From a virus, in the IMG/VR virus record IMGVR_UViG_3300037189_001431, positions 1 to 23,539 of that record: a stretch of 23,539 nt of DNA; one strand, written 5' to 3'. This document shows positions 5,344-23,461 of the stretch, one piece after another. Position 1 is the first letter of the stretch, and each line of letters opens with the position of its first letter. A model generated the notes under the pieces. It had not been told where the DNA came from, ran no database searches, and was given only the letters and a program-made list of their open reading frames with translations. A program made the translations under genes and the position numbers.

Positions 5344-5829
5344 ATGCCACGCGGTAGAGGCGGAAAGCGCGATGGTGTAGTTGGAAAAAACTATTCAAAT
5401 CGCACTGATCTTCAAGGTCAGAATGTAGTTTCAGCACAGCCATCAAACCAACCTGGCATAAAACTTGCTGCGCAAGCGGCAACTGGTCAACCATACGGAA
5501 TGGCAACTGCGCAAGAGAACGCGATGAAAGCATTGCCAATTCAGAATACTGGTATGCCAGCAGTGACTACACCACAAGGACAACCAACACCTCGCGGTCA
5601 GCAGACACTTACTCCACTTGATGCACCAACAGATCATGGACTTCCCATTACACATGGCATGGACATTGGCGATGGCGCTGGCAGAGAAGCGCTTATTACC
5701 CCATTCCAAGCAGACATCACAGTAAAGGCTCTTGGGTTGCTCAATCAATTAGGTTCTGATGTATCACCACAGGTTGCTTTGGCTAGAGATTACCTAACTG
5801 CTAGAGCATCAAATGGTGCGCCACGATGA
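5344..5829 (+). CDS. Hypothetical Gln/Pro/Gly-rich protein downstream of portal, 161 aa
   Basis: The first two thirds are low in hydrophobics and rich in Gln, Pro, Gly and Thr, so probably disordered. It begins with a basic MPRGRGGKRDG head. The last 45 residues look folded and helical (ADITVKALGLLNQLGSDVSP, then ALARDYLTARAS). It lies one base after the portal stop and shares ATGA with the next, giant gene. I recall similar 'MPRGGKR...NRTDL' proteins next to portal genes in uncultured actinophages but know no function. A scaffold- or adaptor-like role is possible. Confidence 0.75.
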   Translation: MPRGRGGKRDGVVGKNYSNRTDLQGQNVVSAQPSNQPGIKLAAQAATGQPYGMATAQENAMKALPIQNTGMPAVTTPQGQPTPRGQQTLTPLDAPTDHGLPITHGMDIGDGAGREALITPFQADITVKALGLLNQLGSDVSPQVALARDYLTARASNGAPR

Positions 5830-8800
5830 GTATGGTGAATCCCCTACCTACTCCAGAAAAAACACCAGCGCAAGAACTAGCAGATAACATTGATGCGCTT
5901 CATGCAAATGGATACGGTTCACTAGATATTCCTACACAGGTTGCAATTGCTTCTAGTGGCAACCCATCAACAGTTCAGTTTGCTATTGCTGACCAAATTA
6001 AACAAGCTACTGCAAACAATGCAGCGAGTCTGGATCATTTCTATGCAGATGCACAGCAAGCGCGTATGCCATCAATGGTACAAAAGGCAACAACAGCAAT
6101 CAAGGGTCACTTTGGTAATACACTTTTAGCAGAAGATCATGTTTCAACAATTCAGCAGGACATGATTAAAGCGGGACTAGCTCCAAAGGGAGCAAAGGTC
6201 ACTGGCATTTGGACTCCAGAGTGGACGGCAGCAGCGAATGATGCTGCATATAGCCAACTGACAAAGCCAGGAGCGGGCAATGCACCTGCTAAGTCCACAG
6301 TTCAACACGTTCTAGGCGCACTCAGCCTTTCACGCAACCTCAATGTCATCCTTGAAGTTGCTAAATCAACTCCACGATCTGTAATGCAACTTATTGGTGA
6401 CTCATTGGTAGGTGCAGTGCCAGCTGGTGTTGCATCTGCCGTTGGTCAAGTAGGGGCAAAACCAGAAAATAGAATTAGCGCCAAAGAATACAAGGAACGC
6501 GCACTTACTCCTGGTCAAGTATTTAACGATGCAATGACTCTTCTTACATTTATACCTTTGGCTCGCGCAGTAACAGGAGCAAAAGTAGCAGCGACTACAG
6601 CAAAAACTGGTGCAGTTTTGTCAGCAGCAGAAGTTGCTCCTAAATACACATTGCTTAATTCAATTGTTGCGGCTAACACTGCTGGAGTTACCAGCATTGC
6701 TAATGTATCCGCTAAGGCTTTGCTTAATAAGCCAATCCTTAAACAACTTTATTGGGGTATTGATAAAACAATAGTTCCAATTATTGCCAAAACAGCACCC
6801 GCTCAAATTGCTATCAGAGACACATTAGCCCAGCGCCTTCGTTTGCCAGCAGTTCGAGCAGCGAATCAATTAGGGCTTACAGTATTAGGACGTGGATTGC
6901 AGGAACAGGGAATCGCTCTTGCCGAAAGTAAATTAGGCAATGAAGAAGGTCCATTAACTTCTACTGTTTATGGTGTTGCTCCTATTTCTGGCGCTCTTGC
7001 TAACGCTTTAGATATTTTTGCAATTCAAATGAATCCAGGAACAGTGGCTTCTCGCGCAGCAACAGCAAAGCAAATTGTTGGAGATACAGCAAAAGCAGGA
7101 GCGGCTTTCCGTAATGCTCTTGATGATATGGGCGCACTCGTTGCATGGCAGAAAGCAAACCCAGATTTAGATTATGCAGAGATCCTTGCAGCCCATAAAG
7201 CTGCTGGCGGAACCGAACTTGATGTATTAAAAACTATCGGCCAGCAAGTAAATCAAATTGCTGCACAACAGGCAATGATGGAACTTCGCAACCCTCTTAT
7301 TCAAGATGGTAGTTGGGGCGCAATGACCGCTGCCCAAAAGGAAGAGTGGGGTTTAGCCACACAGCGCCAGATTTGGGATGATGCAGGAAATCCTAATGGT
7401 CTTTTGGCTCAAGCGCGACAAACTCTTGTAGCAGATCAAAACGCTCTTGAAACTGGCTTTCGTCAAATTGGCGCAAATGCAGCAGGAGATGTTCGCAAGA
7501 TTGCACAAAAGGGCAAAGGCACATCTCGCTTTAATCAGCAGATTGAAGCTAACTCAATTATGGATCGTGTCCTTAACAGCGATATGAGCCAAAACTTCAT
7601 TACGCCTCAACTCCTTGAAAAGTTAACAACAGGACAAATTCCAAAGGCAGAAGAAGTTCTTGCTGCTCGCAAGGCAGAACCAATTGTTACTGGATCACCA
7701 GAAGAGATTGCAAGCGCGCAAAAAGTTCTTAACGATGCTACCAAAGCAGAGGAACTTGCTAAGGCAAGTGCGAAGAAGGCTGGTCTTGAAGTAGAAGGCG
7801 TGTATAAAGTTTATACACAAGCCGACATCAAGAAAAAGATTATTACAGAAGCACAGATGAAGGCGTACCAAGAATGGAACGCGGCATCTAGGGCAGTCCG
7901 TGAGGCTCGCTCTGCTTTGAACAAGGTTAATCCAAAGGCTCCATCAGAGTTCGTCGCTCCTACTGTAGAGATGGCAAAACAGGCAGAAGTAAAGCCTAAC
8001 GCTGGCGCTATTGGTATTGCCCGTCTTGAGACTCTTACTAAGGCTGGCGCTAATAAAATTTACAACAACCTTGCAGAAGAATTACGCCTTGCTAAGACAC
8101 CCGAAGCAAAGGCAAAAGTCCGCACCGAAATTGCTAACACCCTTCTTGAAGAGTTCGGCTACGATGTTTACAAACTTGGCGGATATGACACATCAGAATT
8201 GCTTCGCTTGCTAGGTGATGAAGGAAGTAAGTTAGCATCAGATTTATATGTAATTCGTGATGCTCCAAAAGAATTTACTGACATGATTGCTCGCCTTAAA
8301 GAACTTGGTTACAAGCCAGTTATCGGTACAGACATTGGGCATACTTTCAACCCAGCAGTTCAGTTCACTGATCTCGGCACTGCCGAGATTAAGACTGCTT
8401 CTAAGATTGCGAGCAAGTTTGGTTTAAGCCCACGCCTTTCAGATTCAGAAGCCGTATCTGCTCGCGCCCGCGTAGAAACAAATCGCACTATTCAAGACGC
8501 AATTGATTCTGGCAAGATTAAGGTTTTCCCTAGCTTCAATGCTGATCGCCTTCTTACTTATATCCGAAGTGCAGCAGAGAAGGAAGTTAAACTCACTTGG
8601 GGTCAGGAGCAAGTTCTCCTAAGCAGTCGCAAGGCTGGCTTATATGACATCCCAATCAAACGCATTATGGAAGCAGAAGGCTATACAGAGACAGAGGCTT
8701 GGAACGCAATTCTTGAAGCTAAGCGTACTGAACTAGGGCTTCGTGAAATTCCTTATGCAGACTTGATGCGTATCCTCACGAAGCCATTGGACAAAGATGT

Positions 8801-10409
8801 AGCAGACATGATGGGGCTTCCAAACGGAACCAAGTTCATGGATGAGAAGTCTGCTCAGAACACTATTAAGGCAATTTGGAAGGCTCGTACCAATGTGCCG
8901 ACAGAGATGATTGGTGGCTTGGCTAAGGTCGAAGATTGGCTTTATGGTGGTTTGGGTATTGGCGATAAGTTCAGCGGAACTAATGGAATCAAGTTGGCTT
9001 CCGTTCCTTCTCGCCTATTCAATCTTCGTTCACGCGTCCGCTATCAGTTGTCACCACTCTTCGCTTATCGTCGTATGTTCAAGACAGCGGCTAAGGGAAT
9101 CACTGAGAATATCCCACCAACTATGTACCCTGAATCAAAGATGGAAGAAATGGGTATCTATGCGCAAGCAAAGAAGATCCATGAACGCATTTTCCCAGAG
9201 GATGCAACAAAGAACGCTTTCCTTGATGAAGCAGAACGCGTCATCCGCGAGACAGACTTCTATAACCTTTACAACACACGCGCAGCAGAACAGTGGGCTT
9301 CTTACTGGCTGGCAAAGCAAGGATTCAACGATGCTGAGATTGCGCAGAAGATTGAAAATGTCATGGGATATGGCGAGCGCACTGGAGCCGAGCGCACAGT
9401 AAACGCCATCTTCTTCCCATTCTCATTTAACAAGACCGTTATGCGTCAGTTTGGTTCTTACCTTTTGACTCACCCAGGACAGGTCATGTTGACTCATGCA
9501 ATTCTGGATCTATATGACAAACATGGCGGTTCTGAAATGAACAAGTGGCTTGATGAGAATATGCCAATCATCAAGGAGATTCATAAGTTGAACCCCCTTG
9601 AGCATGGTGTAGGACTCGGCGGACTTGGTGGTATCAATGCCCCATACATTCAGGCTCTATTCGACCTTCTCGCTCCAAAGATGATCGATTATGGAACTAC
9701 CTCACATAACAATTCTGTGATGTCAACACTCAACAAATACATTCCTGCCGTCAAGGAATTCAGCGACCTCTTTATGACACGCGAAGGCAAGGTCGGAGAA
9801 GGCGAAGTTTGGGCAAGCATCAAGAGCCTAGCCAATATCGGTGAAGAGGTTAAGTCTAAGTTGGAAGGTGGAGAGACTCTCATCGCTCCACGCCAGCATA
9901 AGAATATGCCTACTCAGGCACAGCAGACAGCAGCATGGGAATACCGCAATACCCTCATTGCTCAGTTGCAACCATACTTGGACTACAACTATAAGAATCC
10001 TAACAACCGTATTGTCTGGCCAGATAAGATCAAGACCGAAACAGGTCTTGCTGGCAAGGCAATTAACAAGCAGACTATCGATGAACTTGTTCACTACAAG
10101 TACCCAGCATGGGATAACTCAGCATCAGCTTCAATCTCTCGCCAAAAGGCAACAGAAGCAGATCGCTTCATTGGCGAAGTTCGAGCAAGAGATCCACAGC
10201 GCGCAGCCAACTACGAAGTATTCCAAAAAGCAGCACAGCGAGTTAGCGATGCAGTGGCTAAGGACTCAGTTCCAGATGCCAACCTTGTTAAGATAACTGA
10301 TGGATTCCGCAAGGTCGCGATAGACTTAGCGCAGAAGGATCCGAACTTTGCAGCTTTCTATAAGACGCACTATGAACGCCTATTCGGACCATTGGAAGGA
10401 TTTAAGTAA
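5826..10409 (+). CDS. Very large virion protein, candidate ejection/internal protein, 1527 aa
   Basis: The largest gene in the window. No enzyme motif is evident. It is mainly helical and alanine-rich. Two hydrophobic, glycine/alanine-rich segments (about 185-210 and 231-259) could insert in membranes. A long charged helical stretch (about 621-702) is likely coiled coil. The C-terminal third is different: better conserved in feel, with GTDIGHTFNPA (about 834-844), aromatic/basic blocks such as FNLRSRVRYQLSPLFAYRRM, and FFPFSFNKT (1196-1204). It lies between portal and scaffold. With no tape-measure gene elsewhere, size and membrane-active segments suit an ejection/internal virion protein of a short-tailed phage (compare T7 gp16 in size only). 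A tape measure or polyvalent protein cannot be excluded. The ATGA overlap couples it to the previous gene. Confidence 0.8.
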   Translation: MSMVNPLPTPEKTPAQELADNIDALHANGYGSLDIPTQVAIASSGNPSTVQFAIADQIKQATANNAASLDHFYADAQQARMPSMVQKATTAIKGHFGNTLLAEDHVSTIQQDMIKAGLAPKGAKVTGIWTPEWTAAANDAAYSQLTKPGAGNAPAKSTVQHVLGALSLSRNLNVILEVAKSTPRSVMQLIGDSLVGAVPAGVASAVGQVGAKPENRISAKEYKERALTPGQVFNDAMTLLTFIPLARAVTGAKVAATTAKTGAVLSAAEVAPKYTLLNSIVAANTAGVTSIANVSAKALLNKPILKQLYWGIDKTIVPIIAKTAPAQIAIRDTLAQRLRLPAVRAANQLGLTVLGRGLQEQGIALAESKLGNEEGPLTSTVYGVAPISGALANALDIFAIQMNPGTVASRAATAKQIVGDTAKAGAAFRNALDDMGALVAWQKANPDLDYAEILAAHKAAGGTELDVLKTIGQQVNQIAAQQAMMELRNPLIQDGSWGAMTAAQKEEWGLATQRQIWDDAGNPNGLLAQARQTLVADQNALETGFRQIGANAAGDVRKIAQKGKGTSRFNQQIEANSIMDRVLNSDMSQNFITPQLLEKLTTGQIPKAEEVLAARKAEPIVTGSPEEIASAQKVLNDATKAEELAKASAKKAGLEVEGVYKVYTQADIKKKIITEAQMKAYQEWNAASRAVREARSALNKVNPKAPSEFVAPTVEMAKQAEVKPNAGAIGIARLETLTKAGANKIYNNLAEELRLAKTPEAKAKVRTEIANTLLEEFGYDVYKLGGYDTSELLRLLGDEGSKLASDLYVIRDAPKEFTDMIARLKELGYKPVIGTDIGHTFNPAVQFTDLGTAEIKTASKIASKFGLSPRLSDSEAVSARARVETNRTIQDAIDSGKIKVFPSFNADRLLTYIRSAAEKEVKLTWGQEQVLLSSRKAGLYDIPIKRIMEAEGYTETEAWNAILEAKRTELGLREIPYADLMRILTKPLDKDVADMMGLPNGTKFMDEKSAQNTIKAIWKARTNVPTEMIGGLAKVEDWLYGGLGIGDKFSGTNGIKLASVPSRLFNLRSRVRYQLSPLFAYRRMFKTAAKGITENIPPTMYPESKMEEMGIYAQAKKIHERIFPEDATKNAFLDEAERVIRETDFYNLYNTRAAEQWASYWLAKQGFNDAEIAQKIENVMGYGERTGAERTVNAIFFPFSFNKTVMRQFGSYLLTHPGQVMLTHAILDLYDKHGGSEMNKWLDENMPIIKEIHKLNPLEHGVGLGGLGGINAPYIQALFDLLAPKMIDYGTTSHNNSVMSTLNKYIPAVKEFSDLFMTREGKVGEGEVWASIKSLANIGEEVKSKLEGGETLIAPRQHKNMPTQAQQTAAWEYRNTLIAQLQPYLDYNYKNPNNRIVWPDKIKTETGLAGKAINKQTIDELVHYKYPAWDNSASASISRQKATEADRFIGEVRARDPQRAANYEVFQKAAQRVSDAVAKDSVPDANLVKITDGFRKVAIDLAQKDPNFAAFYKTHYERLFGPLEGFK

Positions 10410-12259: not shown

Positions 12260-13390
12260 ATGGCTAAAGCACCTTTAGAATCAGATGTAACAATTTCCCC
12301 TGCTGCCCCCGTTCGTGATATATCGGGTATTGCAACGCAAGCCGCTAATGCAATTCTTACAAAAAAGTCATTGCCTACGGCAACAACAACTGCTGGTTAC
12401 AAAATAGCCCAAGATGCTCAAATAGCAGCCGATCAAGCAGCAGCAGACGCGGCAGCAAAAGTAATAGCAGACAAAGCAGCAGCCGACAAAATAGCAGCAG
12501 ATAAAATTGCAGCAGAAAAGGCAGCAGCAGATAAGGCAGCAGCGGATAAAGCAAAAGCTGATAGTGTTGTAACTCAATCCGCTAAAGACATTGTTAATGG
12601 ATACCTTCGCGAAGCAGGGCTTGGCGCACTTAGCGATGAAACATGGAAGCAATGGAACGCTGGAACCTCAGCAGAACAAATTATGGATTATGTCCGTACA
12701 ACCCCAGATTATGCAAAGCGTTTTCCCGCCATGGCAACACTTCGCACAGCGGGTAGAAGCATTTCTGAGGCACAGTATGTTGCTAAGGAACAAGCGGATG
12801 TTGACATGATGACCTCTTATGGAATCCCAGCAGAAATCGCGACTAACCGCGATTTGCTTGGCAAACTTATTGCAAACAATGTCAATCAGGTCGATCTTCA
12901 AAAGCGTCTCATCGCTGGTCAAGAATCAGTCATGTCCCTAGATAAGAGCGTCCTTAAATATGCAGCAGATACATTTGGTCTAACTCCAGGAGATTTGACT
13001 GCTTTCGTTCTTAACCCAGATATTGCAACTCCAGTTATTGAGCAGAAGGCTAAGGCAATCCAAATTGGTGGAGCTGCTTTCCAAGCAAGTCAGAAGATTG
13101 CAGGAGAACAGGCTTTGAAGTTGGCTGCGGCTGGAGTCACAGGCACACAAGCACAACAAGGATTTGGCAATATCGCCCAACAACAGCAACTTACTCAGGC
13201 ACTTCCAGGAGATGTCTCTGGATCAGTCACCAACGAAGAACTTATCAACGCGCAATTCGGCATGAGTCCAGAAGCACTTGCTAGAACTCGACGAGTTGCT
13301 GGTACACGCGCTGCTGAATATCAGCAAGGCGGACAGTTCGTTTCTGGTCAAGGTGGCGTTATAGGATTAGGTTCTGCACCTCAAGTTTAA
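12260..13390 (+). CDS. Hypothetical virion protein C with Ala/Lys/Asp repeat, 376 aa
   Basis: The ATG with GGAG six bases upstream is preferred to an in-frame TTG 12 bases earlier. A low-complexity region (about 51-102) repeats Ala-Asp-Lys units (ADKAA, ADKIA, AEKAA) and should form a long charged helix, as in TolA-like stalks. The globular part includes NGYLREAGLGALSDETWKQW (113-132), RTTPDYAKRFPAM (146-158) and a stretch around YGIPAEIATNRDLLGKLIAN (187-206). I recall the order 'Y-L-..-G-L', 'TPEYK.RFP', 'YG.P' from actinophage structural proteins, unverified. The C-terminus is Gly/Gln-rich. It is the last gene before a 220-bp gap, so probably ends this block. Confidence 0.76.
   Translation: MAKAPLESDVTISPAAPVRDISGIATQAANAILTKKSLPTATTTAGYKIAQDAQIAADQAAADAAAKVIADKAAADKIAADKIAAEKAAADKAAADKAKADSVVTQSAKDIVNGYLREAGLGALSDETWKQWNAGTSAEQIMDYVRTTPDYAKRFPAMATLRTAGRSISEAQYVAKEQADVDMMTSYGIPAEIATNRDLLGKLIANNVNQVDLQKRLIAGQESVMSLDKSVLKYAADTFGLTPGDLTAFVLNPDIATPVIEQKAKAIQIGGAAFQASQKIAGEQALKLAAAGVTGTQAQQGFGNIAQQQQLTQALPGDVSGSVTNEELINAQFGMSPEALARTRRVAGTRAAEYQQGGQFVSGQGGVIGLGSAPQV
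12410..12565 (+). repeat. Low-complexity repeat encoding Ala-Asp-Lys units
   Basis: The DNA repeats short units such as GCAGCAGATAAGGCAGCAGC with variation, coding for ADKAA/ADKIAA/AEKAA. The units drift in sequence and are not exact copies. Such tracts can change length by slippage. Confidence 0.65.
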
Positions 13391-16987: not shown

Positions 16988-18871
16988 ATGGCTTCCATTG
17001 AGAAATACAATACGCCCTATTACAAACCATCACCTGCTTACTATGGTGGTACAAGTTATTCTAAACTCGTTCCATACCCATTCCCAGTAAGTATCGATGG
17101 ACGCGCTTATCAGATCCAGTGGGACGCAAACTCAATTGGCGTGTGGGGTGCAAAGTTCAAGCGCAACTCACTCCCATTACTTCGTGGTCAGGCGGATAGT
17201 TCTAATACTCCTGGCGAGCAGTCAATTTCCCCAGAGCAATTCTGGCGTAGATCTCAGGAAACTTGGACACTTGGCGAAGGTCAAGTCCACCTAGACCGAG
17301 CGACTTCCGATATTCGTCGTTACCACGACAGCGAAGGCATTGACCCATGGGATCCATGGCAGGTAAAACTTCTCAACAAGACAGCGCAAAAGCGAACCTC
17401 AGCCAATACAAATCTTCAATGTATTGTTGCTGGATCCTATGTTTATTTGATTGATGGAACTTCTGTTTACTATTCCACAAACTTAACTTCATGGACTGCT
17501 GTAACTGTAACTGGAAGCCCAGCAGATCCAACCTCACTTGCAACCGATGGATATAACGTATGGATTGCGCGTGGCACTAGCGGTATTTACAAAACAACCG
17601 TAGGCGCAGCAAGCATGACTTCTTACGCTACTTATAGCGGAACGCTGAACCTCATCAGCTTTACTAAATCCCGTTTGATGGCTACTGGTAATGGCAAACT
17701 TTTTAATGTAATCAATTCTGGATCTCTCGGACCATCAGATCTATTGCTCGACTTATCTTCTCGTAGTTTTACATGGGTAGATATTGTTGGTTCCCCAACA
17801 CAAATTTACGCTGGCGGATATTCTGGCGATAAGTCATTTATCTACCGCACAGCAATTAAGGCAGATGGAACAGCGCTTGATGTGCCTATCGTCGCTGGTC
17901 AACTTCCAGATGGCGAAATTATCGCATCCCTTGGTGAATACCTTGGCTATATCTTTATTGGCTCAAACCGAGGCATCCGATTCTGCACCGTAGGGACAGA
18001 TGGTTCACTTGTTATCGGGCCACTTATCCCTACCTATGACACTGTTTATGCGTTTGAAGGACAAGATCGTTTTGTTTGGTACGGTAACTCAAATTACGAT
18101 AACGATAGTGGTCTAGGTCGCATGGATTTGACCACCTTCACTTCGACCCTAGTTCCTGCTTATGCCTCAGATTTAATGTCTAAGGCTGGCAGTGGAACGG
18201 TTAGTTCGGTTGCAACTTTTAGCAACCTTCGTATCTTCACCATCAATGGCAAGGGACTTTATTCGGAACTTGCCAACACCCCAGTAGATTCAGGAACTCT
18301 TGTAACTGGAACTATCAGTTACGGAATCTCGGATCCAAAGGTTGCCATGTTCTTGGACATCAAGCATGAACCTCTTCACGGCACAATCACTGCTGGCATC
18401 ATCGCAGATCAGCATGATTCTGATCTTGACTTAGATACAGCAAATGTTATTGGCATTTCAGATACCCAAGAAAGCGTATCCCCAACAGCAGCATTTCCTT
18501 GTGGTCAACTTTCTAACGAGTCGGTTCAATTGGTTTTCAAGTTAGAACCAAGTGCTGCTGGAGTCAGTCCAATCCTCAACCGTTGGACTCTTCGTTCTTA
18601 CGTTGCGCCAAAACGCACAGCACAATGGGATGTTCCAATCCTTCTCTATCCAACAATTCAAGCTGGAGATAAGGATTGGTCATACGGAGTTCAAAAGGAA
18701 GTTGATTTCCTTGCAGGACTTCATCAAGCACAATCAATTGTTACACTTCAAGTAGCCGAAGCAACATATCAAGTGGTTATGTATGATTACCAATGGATAC
18801 CAGAGGCTATTGGTGTGGACGGACAGCCACGCGGAATTTTCTACGCACAACTTAGAGAGATAGTAGGTTAA
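16988..18871 (+). CDS. Large beta-rich tail protein, candidate nozzle or hub, 627 aa
   Basis: The N-terminal 130 residues form a distinct region ending in RRYHDSEGIDPWDPWQV (110-126). From about 145 to 440 the sequence reads as repeating four-stranded units typical of beta-propellers, for example YVYLIDGTSVYYSTNLTSWT (151-170), YNVWIARGTSGIYKTT and LGYIFIGSNRGIRFCTVGTDG. The C-terminal 180 residues are another beta domain. Propeller-like tail nozzles are known in short-tailed phages (T7 gp12, P22 gp10), so a nozzle/hub role fits the gene order. This is inference from strand patterns; a receptor-binding propeller is the alternative. Confidence 0.7.
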   Translation: MASIEKYNTPYYKPSPAYYGGTSYSKLVPYPFPVSIDGRAYQIQWDANSIGVWGAKFKRNSLPLLRGQADSSNTPGEQSISPEQFWRRSQETWTLGEGQVHLDRATSDIRRYHDSEGIDPWDPWQVKLLNKTAQKRTSANTNLQCIVAGSYVYLIDGTSVYYSTNLTSWTAVTVTGSPADPTSLATDGYNVWIARGTSGIYKTTVGAASMTSYATYSGTLNLISFTKSRLMATGNGKLFNVINSGSLGPSDLLLDLSSRSFTWVDIVGSPTQIYAGGYSGDKSFIYRTAIKADGTALDVPIVAGQLPDGEIIASLGEYLGYIFIGSNRGIRFCTVGTDGSLVIGPLIPTYDTVYAFEGQDRFVWYGNSNYDNDSGLGRMDLTTFTSTLVPAYASDLMSKAGSGTVSSVATFSNLRIFTINGKGLYSELANTPVDSGTLVTGTISYGISDPKVAMFLDIKHEPLHGTITAGIIADQHDSDLDLDTANVIGISDTQESVSPTAAFPCGQLSNESVQLVFKLEPSAAGVSPILNRWTLRSYVAPKRTAQWDVPILLYPTIQAGDKDWSYGVQKEVDFLAGLHQAQSIVTLQVAEATYQVVMYDYQWIPEAIGVDGQPRGIFYAQLREIVG

Positions 18872-18873
18872 TA

Positions 18874-19794
18874 ATGGCAAGACGCGAATATAAAGGTGCT
18901 GCTACCCCAACAACGCTTTCAGCGAACATCAACAACTCAGCGACTTCACTCACCATCACCGATTCGACCAACTGGCCGACTGGATCATTTTCACTTGTTA
19001 TCGATCCAGGACTAGCTGGCGAAGAAAAGATCCTTGCCACCTCCCGCTCTGGTACAACAGTCACACTTACTACTCGTGGTTACGACAATACTTCTGCATC
19101 TACTCACACAACTGGCGCAGTCATTTACCCAGTTCCAACAGCGGTTGACTTCGATGAGGCTAACGCTCACGTCAATGCTTCAACAGGTGTCCATGGACTT
19201 TCTGGCGCAGTGGTTGGTACAACAGATACTCAGACCCTTACAAATAAAAGTTTATCTGATAGCACAGTATCTATTGTCGATGTAGCGGATGCAACAAAGG
19301 CAATTAAGTTTGATATTGGCGGAACTACATCAGTCACAGGAACTATTACTACTGCTTTTACTACAGCAAAGACAGTAACTATTCCAGACGCAACAGATAC
19401 CTTGGTGGGTAAAGCAACAACAGACACCCTCACAAATAAGACTCTTACCTCTCCTACTATTAACACCCCAAAGACTTACATTGGATACACAGCTAAAACT
19501 GCTGCATATACTGTAGGAACTGGCGATGAAGGTTATTTATTCTCAATGAACAATGCTGCAACGCAGCAGTTCAATATCCCAACAGACGCCACCTTTAACT
19601 TTGCAATCGGTACTGTGATTAACTTTGTATGGATCACAGGAGCAGGTCAGCCAACAATCGGTGCAACAACACCTGGTACTACAACAATCAGTTCAACTGC
19701 TGGTGTAACTCCAAAACTTCGTGTGGCTAACTCAGCTGCCAGTGCAATCAAACTAGCAGCAAACTCTTGGTTGGTCGTGGGAGACATTGCCTAA
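18874..19794 (+). CDS. Tail fibre-like protein, 306 aa
   Basis: The N-terminal domain (about 10-90) is a small beta fold of a kind common at the base of phage fibres (TTLSANINNSATSLTITDST, then EEKILATSRSGTTVTLTTRGY). VDFDEANAHVNASTGVHGLSG (91-111) links to a thin fibre region with two copies of a T-[QD]-TLTNK-[ST]-L repeat (119-127 and 183-191), typical of trimeric phage fibres. The C-terminal part is beta-rich (FNFAIGTVINFVWITGAGQP) and resembles fibre tips that handle host surface sugars, though no binding site can be read. It begins two bases after the stop of the propeller-like gene and its own stop overlaps the next ATG. Confidence 0.82.
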   Translation: MARREYKGAATPTTLSANINNSATSLTITDSTNWPTGSFSLVIDPGLAGEEKILATSRSGTTVTLTTRGYDNTSASTHTTGAVIYPVPTAVDFDEANAHVNASTGVHGLSGAVVGTTDTQTLTNKSLSDSTVSIVDVADATKAIKFDIGGTTSVTGTITTAFTTAKTVTIPDATDTLVGKATTDTLTNKTLTSPTINTPKTYIGYTAKTAAYTVGTGDEGYLFSMNNAATQQFNIPTDATFNFAIGTVINFVWITGAGQPTIGATTPGTTTISSTAGVTPKLRVANSAASAIKLAANSWLVVGDIA

Positions 19795-20342
19795 TGAATC
19801 CAATCTTAGGTATCATTGCTTCGTCTATATCGGGTAGTTTGAATGCTTCATCTTATGAGTCTATTCAGACTGTGACCCTTGGTTCTGCTCAATCGACTAT
19901 TTCATTTTCGTCAATTCCCAGCACCTATAAGCATTTGCAAATTCGTGGAATTATGAAGACAAGCGCAACCAGCGGTGGTTCAACAAGCATAACATTCAAT
20001 TCTGATACCGCTGGCAATTACTCAATGCACGGACTTTCTGGAAACGGAGCTTCTGCATCTGCTTACGGCTTTACTGGTGAAACGAAGATTTATGTGGGTT
20101 ATGGAACACAAGACACAACTCAATTCAGTGCGCTAATCATCGACATTTTAGAATATGCGAATACGAATACCTACAAGACCGTAAGAGCTTTGTCTGGCTT
20201 GGATACTAATGGCGGTGGAATTGTCGAACTACTTTCAGGCAACTGGCGTTCAACTAGCGCGGTCACTTCCATCACTTTGACCCCGCAGTCTGCCAATTTT
20301 ACTCAATACTCATCATTCGCTCTCTACGGCGTGAAGGGATAG
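19794..20342 (+). CDS. Appendage protein, copy 1 of 3, 182 aa
   Basis: I start it at the ATG in TAATG overlapping the fibre stop; an upstream GTG would add nine residues inside the fibre gene. It shares a framework with the next two genes: FSSIPSTYKHL (38-48), a TYKTV segment, a WRSTSAVTSITL segment and a terminal F-x-LYGVKG. The fold is probably a beta-sandwich (Ser/Thr/Gly-rich, alternating hydrophobics). The tandem position after the fibre gene suggests tail-tip or receptor-binding subunits. The first 20 residues are hydrophobic (ILGIIASSISG) and unlike those of the other copies. Confidence 0.78.
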   Translation: MNPILGIIASSISGSLNASSYESIQTVTLGSAQSTISFSSIPSTYKHLQIRGIMKTSATSGGSTSITFNSDTAGNYSMHGLSGNGASASAYGFTGETKIYVGYGTQDTTQFSALIIDILEYANTNTYKTVRALSGLDTNGGGIVELLSGNWRSTSAVTSITLTPQSANFTQYSSFALYGVKG

Positions 20343-20345
20343 ACG

Positions 20346-20825
20346 ATGGCTTCTACTTATACCCCGATTGGGACTGGAACATCTAGCGGTTCTACAACAG
20401 AGTTCAACTTTACTTCAATTAGCGGTTATACAGATATAGTTGCTATTTTCAATGGTGCTACAAATGCAAGCGATAGCATTTACTGTCAGGTAAATGGCTC
20501 AGGTGGTACTAACTATTCATCTACTCGCATTTATGGAAACGGCTCTGCGGCTTATTCAGATAGAAGCACAAACAGCGATTCTTGGAATTTCAATATTGGT
20601 GCTACAGATAATCGCCAAGAAATTAGATTGAACTTTCAAAACGTAAATAACACTACAACCTACAAATCAGTACTATCTCGTTCCGATAATCCTTCCGCTT
20701 CTTATGTTGGAAGCCACGTCGGGTTATGGCGTAGTACTGCTGCAATTACTTCAATTAGACTTTATACTCTCAACTCTTTTACAACTGGCTCTACCTTCAC
20801 CCTATACGGAATCGCGGCGGCGTAA
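20346..20825 (+). CDS. Appendage protein, copy 2 of 3, 159 aa
   Basis: It follows copy 1 after a three-base gap and ends in TAATG with copy 3. The shared framework is FTSISGYTDI (22-31), TTYKSV, WRSTAAITSIRL and a terminal F-T-LYG. Between these blocks the sequence differs strongly from its neighbours, with many Asn and Ser residues. It is shorter than the other two. It is probably the same beta-sandwich fold; ligand unknown. Confidence 0.78.
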   Translation: MASTYTPIGTGTSSGSTTEFNFTSISGYTDIVAIFNGATNASDSIYCQVNGSGGTNYSSTRIYGNGSAAYSDRSTNSDSWNFNIGATDNRQEIRLNFQNVNNTTTYKSVLSRSDNPSASYVGSHVGLWRSTAAITSIRLYTLNSFTTGSTFTLYGIAAA

Positions 20826-21346
20826 TGGCAAACACAATGACATTGATTTTATCCGTTACAGTGGGAGTGGGTGGGTCTGCAACTATGTCTTTTACTTCCA
20901 TCCCATCAACATATACAGATTTGCAACTTGTTGTTTCTGCGCGTTCATCTACGGGAATTTATCAAACAGACTGTAATGTACAGGTAGGTAATGGTTCAGT
21001 AGATACTGGAAGCAACTATAAAACTATAGAAGTGTATGGAGACGGAACTAGCGCTGCTTCAAATAGTTTTACCACAACAAATGTACACCCGCCTATTGCT
21101 GGTGCTGGTGCTACATCAAGCACTTTTGGAAATTTTCAGTTGTATTTCCCAAATTATGCAGGCTCAACTGCCAAATCTATAAGTTGCGATGTGGTAACAG
21201 AAAACAATGCCACAAATGCTGCGGCTCGTTTAGCCGCTTATTTATGGACTGGTACTAGCGCAATCAACATTATTACTTTAACCGCAGCAAGCGGTAATTT
21301 TGTTCAATACTCAACCGCCTACCTATATGGAGTAAAAAATGCCTAA
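20825..21346 (+). CDS. Appendage protein, copy 3 of 3, 173 aa
   Basis: Coupled to copy 2 by TAATG. The framework is recognisable again: FTSIPSTYTDLQ (23-34), AKSIS, WTGTSAINIITL and a terminal YSTAYLYGVKN. The FTSIPSTY block is closest to copy 1. The central region has its own insert (about 70-110, Gly/Ala/Thr/Pro-rich). The eight-base overlap with the following small helical gene suggests coordinated translation. Confidence 0.78.
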   Translation: MANTMTLILSVTVGVGGSATMSFTSIPSTYTDLQLVVSARSSTGIYQTDCNVQVGNGSVDTGSNYKTIEVYGDGTSAASNSFTTTNVHPPIAGAGATSSTFGNFQLYFPNYAGSTAKSISCDVVTENNATNAAARLAAYLWTGTSAINIITLTAASGNFVQYSTAYLYGVKNA

Positions 21347-21572
21347 CCCAACACGAATCGAAGTCAACTGCACCACAGGTGAAGTTCTTGAAATTGAACT
21401 CACCGATGCAGAAGTAGCACAGATGGAAGCAGACCGCGTAGCTGCAGAAACACGCAAGGCTGAGGAAGATGCAGCAGCACAGGCTCTTACTGATCTAAAA
21501 ATGTCAGCTCGCGCTAAACTTGTAGCAGGAACACCACTTACAGAAGAAGAAGCAGCAACACTCGTCATCTAA
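21339..21572 (+). CDS. Small helical protein downstream of appendages, 77 aa
   Basis: It overlaps the preceding stop by eight bases. The N-terminal beta hairpin (TRIEVNCTTGEVLEIEL, 5-21) is followed by a long acidic Ala/Glu helix (22-62), probably coiled coil, and a short C-terminal helix (TPLTEEEAATLVI). The arrangement (beta hairpin plus long helix, directly after fibre genes) resembles small tail-fibre chaperone or assembly proteins, but I cannot name the family. Confidence 0.7.
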   Translation: MPNPTRIEVNCTTGEVLEIELTDAEVAQMEADRVAAETRKAEEDAAAQALTDLKMSARAKLVAGTPLTEEEAATLVI

Positions 21573-22748: not shown

Positions 22749-22838
22749 ATGTCTAAAGTAACCATGGAATTGGTCATCACCGCTGAGGCGGAAGTGACTC
22801 ACGCTGATGGAACAAAAGATACTAAGGAGTCAGAATGA
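22749..22838 (+). CDS. Very small hypothetical protein, 29 aa
   Basis: The open frame has AAGG (22737-22740) eight bases upstream and its stop overlaps the next ATG (ATGA), as in the confirmed gene pairs. The peptide has one strand (VTMELVITAEAEVTHADG) and an acidic/basic tail. It is too short for a functional call, and could instead be a leader peptide for the next gene. Confidence 0.5.
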   Translation: MSKVTMELVITAEAEVTHADGTKDTKESE

Positions 22839-23218
22839 CCGTAGGATTAGCCACAACAACACTTGCAAACAACTGGCTCAATATGCTCCGTGCGGTTGCT
22901 TTTACTGCTCCTGCTGCAACATACATTAAACTCCATACAGGAGATCCTGGTGCTGCTGGAACAGCAAACGCATCAGCAGTAACAACTCGCCAATCAGCAA
23001 CATTTTCTGCTGCTTCTGGTGGAGCAATTGCTCTTTCCAATTCACCTGCATTTACCATGACAACTACAGAGACCATCACGCACATCTCAGTATGGGATGC
23101 TTCAACTGCTGGCAATCTTCTTTGGACTGCTGCGCTAACAACTTCCAAGTCAGTTGTTAACACAGATGTATTGACTTTCACGACTCTTGGAGTTTCACTT
23201 TCACCATTAGCGGCATAA
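22835..23218 (+). CDS. Virion or tail protein with LHTGDPGAAGTANA motif, 127 aa
   Basis: AAGGAG precedes the ATG. After an N-terminal helix (ANNWLNMLRAVAF) the protein is beta-rich and Thr/Ala-rich; YIKLHTGDPGAAGTANA (30-46) is a motif I remember from many actinophage proteins annotated as minor tail or fibre proteins (unverified). ITHISVWDASTAGNLLWTA (81-99) continues the fold. It starts in an ATGA overlap. Surface or tail role inferred. Confidence 0.75.
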   Translation: MTVGLATTTLANNWLNMLRAVAFTAPAATYIKLHTGDPGAAGTANASAVTTRQSATFSAASGGAIALSNSPAFTMTTTETITHISVWDASTAGNLLWTAALTTSKSVVNTDVLTFTTLGVSLSPLAA

Positions 23219-23221
23219 TTT

Positions 23222-23461
23222 ATGGCAACTAATTATCCTAACGCTCTTGATAGCCTGACAAACCCAACGGCAACTGACACCCTTGATTCGGTCACGGTTC
23301 CTCACGCTTCTCAGCACACAGACATCAATGATGCAGTTGAAGCTATCGAAGGCGAACTTGGCACAAACCCAAAGGGTTCATTTGCCTCAGTCAAAGCTCG
23401 TCTTGTTGCTGGAGATCCAGATTCAGATCAATCACTTTTAGCTTCACAAATCTTCGGATAG
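23222..23461 (+). CDS. Small phage protein with NYPNALDSLTNPTATDTLD motif, 79 aa
   Basis: The short sequence contains two conserved-looking blocks: NYPNALDSLTNPTATDTLD (4-22) and VPHASQHTDINDAVEAIEGE (26-45), followed by LGTNPKGSFASVKARL. I have seen the same blocks in fibre or attachment proteins of actinophages, often as an N-terminal module of a longer protein; here they stand alone. It ends with a stop, eight bases before the next ATG. Confidence 0.75.
   Translation: MATNYPNALDSLTNPTATDTLDSVTVPHASQHTDINDAVEAIEGELGTNPKGSFASVKARLVAGDPDSDQSLLASQIFG

Follow-up and report, generated by a model that had tools for sequence, protein, structure and literature searches.

The window analysed here is the whole 23,539-nucleotide stretch (23.5 kb) of IMG/VR virus record IMGVR_UViG_3300037189_001431, which encodes a large terminase, a major head protein and structural genes. 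A 306-amino-acid (aa) fibre gene is followed by three genes that we call A, B and C, and downstream of these lie a 77-aa gene, further small genes and the gene for an M15 peptidase (Table 1); the fibre stop and the A start overlap as ATGA at 19794. A first-pass annotation had read A, B and C as three tandem copies of one appendage gene of 182, 159 and 173 aa. The three open reading frames (ORFs) do lie directly after the fibre gene, and BLASTP, shuffling and profile alignments all support their homology. Comparison with relatives shows that they belong to a genuine cassette of deep conservation and unusual layout, with a probable role in host recognition.

Table 1. Features of the cassette and its surroundings in window coordinates (L numbers are compared loci; pLDDT, predicted local distance difference test)
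Feature	Position	Strand	Basis or remark
Fibre gene, 306 aa	18874..19794	+	tail fibre family among PHROG matches
Conserved fibre base, codons 1-97; codons beyond it lie in the exchanged cassette	to about 19163		base 94.8%, distal part 41% aa identity to sibling L025
A, slot 1 subunit, 182 aa	19794..20342	+	N-terminal segment MNPILGIIASSISGSLNASS, then all-beta domain
B, slot 2 subunit, 159 aa	20346..20825	+	all-beta domain, almost nothing else
C, slot 3 subunit, 173 aa	20825..21346	+	all-beta domain, pLDDT 92
77-aa gene	21339..21572	+	synteny: follows C in most relatives
Cassette replaced relative to siblings L025/L039 (distal fibre with A, B and C)	19163..21299	.	loss and recovery of DNA identity, sliding profile
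A/B junction (conserved A end and B start)	20290..20375	.	matches L018 86%, L022 76%; end-decile third-position identity
B/C junction (conserved B end and C start)	20793..20866	.	82% patch with L025/L039 inside the replaced cassette
Distal crossover stretch (last C codons and start of 77-aa gene)	21299..21360	.	near-perfect match to L025 from here

The three proteins are full-length homologues sharing one predicted fold. BLASTP aligned A with B at 31% identity over 163 columns (7e-10), A with C at 35% identity (8e-12) and B with C at 36% over the N-terminal 88 (8e-5). Smith-Waterman scores compared with 2000 shuffles gave z = 12.4, 15.1 and 9.6 for the pairs among A, B and C, and about 0 for each of them against the equally Ser/Thr-rich fibre, results that rule out a composition artefact as the source of the likeness. 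Profiles of the three classes align over their entire length (hhalign E 2e-34 to 5e-37, about 30% identity), so that the earlier description of copies diverged beyond easy alignment was overstated. The common framework on which that description was built is real; its second motif, however, is properly aligned as K[ST] (A K128, B K107, C K117), and B reads F.SISGY rather than SIP.TY. Used as a single-sequence query, B found no relatives, and these were reached via A, C and profiles.

Family databases added little. A, B and C of the window matched no PHROGs family and no Pfam entry above the cut-off, and one of 25 A-class members matched a PHROG, an unnamed one. DUF2541 (PF10807), the published label of homologues in the Planktophila phages E7 and F5, gave no match in the window at E <= 10, though the E. 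coli control was detected, nor did hmmscan match it to A, B or C of E7. The glycine-rich, gp38-like domain PF21722 (Gly_rich_2) was likewise not detected by Pfam in A, B or C of the window.

The comparison of predicted structures that the first-pass annotation had proposed gave one fold and not several: AlphaFold places 11-12 beta strands in identical order in A, B and C. Confidence was high for C (Table 1) and averaged pLDDT 84 for A and B, which were modelled as one read-through chain from an alignment of read-through rows only; the linker between them is artificial, and the A-B arrangement in the model therefore carries no weight. Profile searches of the PDB with A, B and C returned no match. 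Compared with solved structures, galectin, laminin G and carbohydrate-binding module sandwiches being among those considered, C had none at E <= 1e-3 (template modelling score, TM, <= 0.42), and the A and B chain matched tandem laminin G and galectin domains (E 3e-7 to 7e-6) with a TM of only about 0.2. Comparison with BFVD yielded structural relatives, some of them named tail fibre, Stf-repeat, collagen-like, fn3 and glycine-rich.

Variation is not concentrated in the loops of this fold. Mean column entropy in strands and loops, respectively, was 1.67 vs. 1.62 for A, 1.63 vs. 1.61 for B and 1.77 vs. 1.42 for C, i.e. about equal in the first two and higher in strands in the third, and the variable blocks of each class are contiguous stretches of strands and hairpins. 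With strands as variable as loops, 'surface loops', to which the earlier annotation had assigned the diversification, is too narrow a description.

A, B and C are ancient orthologous classes, not recent duplicates. In a tree of 114 domains each forms one clade (support of 98, 86 and 99, respectively, by the quick Shimodaira-Hasegawa-like approximate likelihood ratio test, SH-aLRT). All three genes are present in the loci retrieved with A (10 loci) or C (23 loci) unless a contig end intervenes. In a wider set of 140 loci, most of them retrieved via an A or C sequence and some being the same contig under two names, the order A-B-C was kept in 88/88 loci with DNA on both sides; the shorter patterns all end at a contig edge, and four loci carry an extra C or a repeated ABC. 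Complete trios also occur in loci retrieved via unrelated neighbours, namely the 627-aa gene (L043, L046) and the peptidase (L063, L066, L067, L076). The variable cores alone are sufficient to assign class: in five-fold cross-validation 321/321 fell into their own slot, so that no transfer between slots was observed in this sample. In L009 (1083-2354) two trios are arranged as A-B-(C-fn3-A)-B-C, the C of the first trio being fused to the A of the second.

The first-pass annotation had explained the three copies by local duplication in this phage followed by diversification of surface loops. Such a recent event would account for three adjacent homologues with a shared framework. However, the closest relatives of each copy are same-slot genes of other phages, the order is preserved across the wider set, strands vary as much as loops, and whole cores are swapped between phages, as described below; we therefore regard a recent duplication as highly improbable.

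Comparison with close relatives shows how the cassette changes. Relative to the siblings L025 and L039, the window retains 98% DNA identity up to 19163, loses the match across the distal fibre and the trio, and regains it at 21299 (95%), with the breaks at about fibre codon 97 and in the last C codons. Protein identity to L025 behaves accordingly, at 99.4% for the 627-aa gene upstream of the fibre, high in the fibre base and low in its distal part (Table 1), 51, 46 and 51% in A, B and C, 84% in the 77-aa gene and 99% in the peptidase. A fibre-linked region is thus replaced between near-identical backbones, as expected of a hypervariable host-recognition island in tailed phages. Pairs of loci with at least 85% identity in both flanks mostly either share the whole trio or have a trio like those of unrelated phages.

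To what extent the replacement spares the gene ends was apparent from 21 sibling pairs (drawn from 23 loci, flanks about 93%, individual loci recurring in several pairs, which are thus non-independent). Third-position identity at identical residues was at the level of random pairs in the cores, i.e. saturated. Towards the gene ends it was higher, at 64-92% for the final decile of each of the three genes and 65-68% for the opening decile of B and of C. Replacement therefore removes the cores and tends to leave the junctions.

Single genes are exchanged as well as whole cassettes. Among 107 distinct trios, with about 100 alleles per slot, 17 pairs share an allele at >=90% and 16/17 share exactly one gene (again non-independent pairs, with recurring loci); L125, L143, L152, L160 and L177 share different genes with different partners. 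In most allele-sharing pairs the blast breakpoints lie near gene junctions. The extreme variability of a fibre-linked gene could also suggest targeted hypermutation, for example by a diversity-generating retroelement. Judged from the pattern of variation, with no search aimed at a retroelement or template repeat and the record being a fragment, we give that explanation very little credence: alleles differ across the whole core, including in length, third positions are saturated, and old alleles recur in different combinations, all of which fits recombination.

The relatives also place the cassette in a tail context. In some of them B and C carry a C-terminal glycine-rich domain, confirmed as PF21722 in 4/4 tested, and long C-terminal extensions were found on 6/135 B and 9/143 C, vs. 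0/130 A. Segments resembling fn3 precede A at its N-terminus in some relatives, and in Streptomyces phage gp29 proteins the domain is C-terminal. Among A, B and C, only A has an extra N-terminal segment. Glycine-rich domains carry the receptor loops in gp38 and Pam3 gp24 (PMC12892980, PMC9608196). From the fusions, the C-terminal placement in gp29, the fibre and collagen-like relatives in BFVD and the A-only segment, we infer a complex at the fibre tip with A as its dock. In the Planktophila phage E7 (L037, 10190-11923) two separate glycine-rich proteins (PF21722) lie between the fibre and A; compared by eye, their N-termini look like the one of A and may represent a common docking segment.

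The same data bear on the idea that A, B and C are virion proteins other than adhesins, such as decoration, shaft or cap proteins of the tail or head, varying to escape something other than receptor change. The structural matches, being weak, non-specific and spread over many beta sandwiches, would allow this. The exchanged stretch, on the other hand, takes in the distal fibre and ends exactly past C, the glycine-rich and fn3 fusions and the gp29 arrangement point to an appendage, and the same island has been tentatively linked to host recognition in print in E7 and F5, making a non-adhesin role unlikely. The earlier identification of the three as homologous tail appendage proteins is supported and can be extended: they form a hypervariable, exchangeable module linked to the fibre, for which a role in host range is likely.

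The explanation that we favour, with somewhat better than even confidence, is that A, B and C are three non-interchangeable, slot-locked subunits of a distal host-binding fibre tip that are exchanged by recombination. Each subunit would be a small all-beta domain that combines a conserved framework with a core of high variability. Docking on the fibre is probably the task of A, the sole subunit with additional sequence at its N-terminus; B and C, with little beyond the bare domain, probably join it in a hetero-oligomer, most simply with one of each, and the variable cores would contact the bacterial surface. Novelty would arise by homologous recombination at conserved stretches (the fibre base, the A/B and B/C junctions and the end of C), allowing a phage to swap the whole cassette or a single subunit core for one of the alleles in a common pool; the exchanged parts would remain compatible through their slot frameworks. 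We are more confident of the tail adhesin function and of the evolutionary pattern than of this model as a whole, and less so of the 1:1:1 stoichiometry, although a hetero-oligomeric tip, as envisaged in the first-pass annotation, is consistent with slot-locking. We give about an even chance to the specific proposal of a combinatorial adhesin, in which three paralogous subunits drawn from apparently large allele pools are re-assorted gene by gene via conserved junctions, without loss of slot identity.

Several observations weigh against a three-part tip. Three loci retrieved via neighbour genes (L060, L064, L071) have one distant copy only, which suggests that the domain can apparently work without two partners; the copy in L071 had no match in named phages. 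Distances in A, B and C are weakly correlated (Mantel r 0.42, 0.29 and 0.18), and this, together with re-assortment one gene at a time, means that any subunit interfaces must lie in the frameworks. No convincing match to any solved structure emerged from the structure and PDB profile searches. In favour of the model, E7 and F5, which both infect the host LanE-43 (PMC10202952), have the same DNA sequence throughout B, C and the part of A that was compared, vs. about 97% identity in the surroundings. This one case fits a host-linked cassette, but is suggestive only, because other stretches of E7 and F5 are also identical.

The single-copy relatives, and the independent exchange of alleles of each gene, would be readily explained if A, B and C were three separate adhesins, each a homo-oligomer with a different receptor. 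The phage would then possess several specificities independent of one another, and the gene order would be an operon habit only. Phages with several receptor-binding proteins are common, for example Ackermannviridae, described with up to four tail spikes, and this counts in favour of separate adhesins. Independent adhesins would not, however, require that all three genes always be present or that the slot frameworks never mix, and B and C lack any additional stretch by which each might be anchored to the virion on its own. We consider separate adhesins possible, but clearly less probable than subunits of one tip.

Phages are known to switch hosts by exchanging fibre tips, and the usual picture is of a single receptor-binding protein being swapped. 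In the present case the unit that moves comprises three fixed slots; each has some hundred alleles in a small sample, mostly re-assorted singly, and this turnover within slots probably enables the viruses to keep pace with changes in bacterial surfaces. If the adhesin is indeed combinatorial, a few recombination steps could explore a very large number of tip combinations. The cassette offers a small, naturally occurring model in which to study how an adhesin made of several parts holds together as those parts are replaced, and the idea is testable because cultivated phages (E7, F5) of the abundant freshwater 'Ca. Planktophila' carry it.

A few further features of the window and its relatives deserve mention. 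The trio is present on one actinobacterial contig of a metagenome-assembled genome (L180, genome scan), which hints that the host of the window phage may be actinobacterial. The product of the 77-aa gene is a putative, possible accessory protein. The 627-aa gene (16988-18871) has its homologue downstream of C and the 77-aa gene in many A-B-C relatives. Beyond the peptidase, a 127-aa protein (22835-23218) matches PF23140 'Podophage GP4 fiber I protein gp80' (E 1e-33) and is a possible second fibre-like gene, and a 79-aa gene (23222-23461) is 82% identical to L025, vs. about 99% for its neighbours, possibly marking a second variable region that begins at the window end. About 300 bp (12271-12569) did not align to L039 amid 95-97% identity. 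Between the terminase and the major head protein lies a 1527-aa ORF (5826-10409) with no PHROG or Pfam family match, whose position 5′ of the head gene is unusual for a tape measure.

As far as the literature searched shows, the three classes, their fixed order, slot-locking and gene-by-gene exchange are new. The closest published system is a 5-kb variable island in the Planktophila phages E7 and F5, for which a link to host recognition has been suggested tentatively (PMC10202952; OX376640, OX376641). OX376640 carries the same A-B-C trio as the window; three orthologous classes, fixed order, slot-locking and single-gene exchange are not described in that paper. Pelagimyophage host-recognition islands (PMC7029224) resemble the cassette as hypervariable tail-fibre regions in a conserved backbone; they differ, in the parts of the account available to us, in being large regions of varied genes, with no three-slot cassette described there. 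Recognition at the fibre tip by glycine-rich domains with variable ends is known from the gp38 adhesins of T2, S16 and PP01 and from Pam3 gp24. The latter, in which a glycine-rich domain comes after a beta domain as it does in the extended forms of B and C in relatives, is a homotrimer of one protein, and the window's own A, B and C have no glycine-rich domain. In Streptomyces phage Microdon, an actinobacterial phage, and its relatives, gp29 from the minor tail gene region has the domain at its C-terminus, 29% identical to A, in this case as a single copy on a longer protein and not as a trio. For a heterotrimer, the best architectural precedent is mycobacteriophage Mysterious, where the consecutively numbered gp35, gp36 and gp37 (about 205 aa) form a beta-sandwich heterotrimer present six times per baseplate, according to the portion of a cryo-electron microscopy preprint that we could consult (PMC13252515). 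The likeness lies in three adjacent beta genes of similar size, in an actinobacterial phage as well, and the window-type trio is always together and slot-specific; the Mysterious proteins, however, are described there as baseplate parts, with no mention of allele exchange in that portion. This precedent for a putative A/B/C complex, likened by description, is not evidence of homology, but it illustrates how three such subunits may be built into one tail structure.
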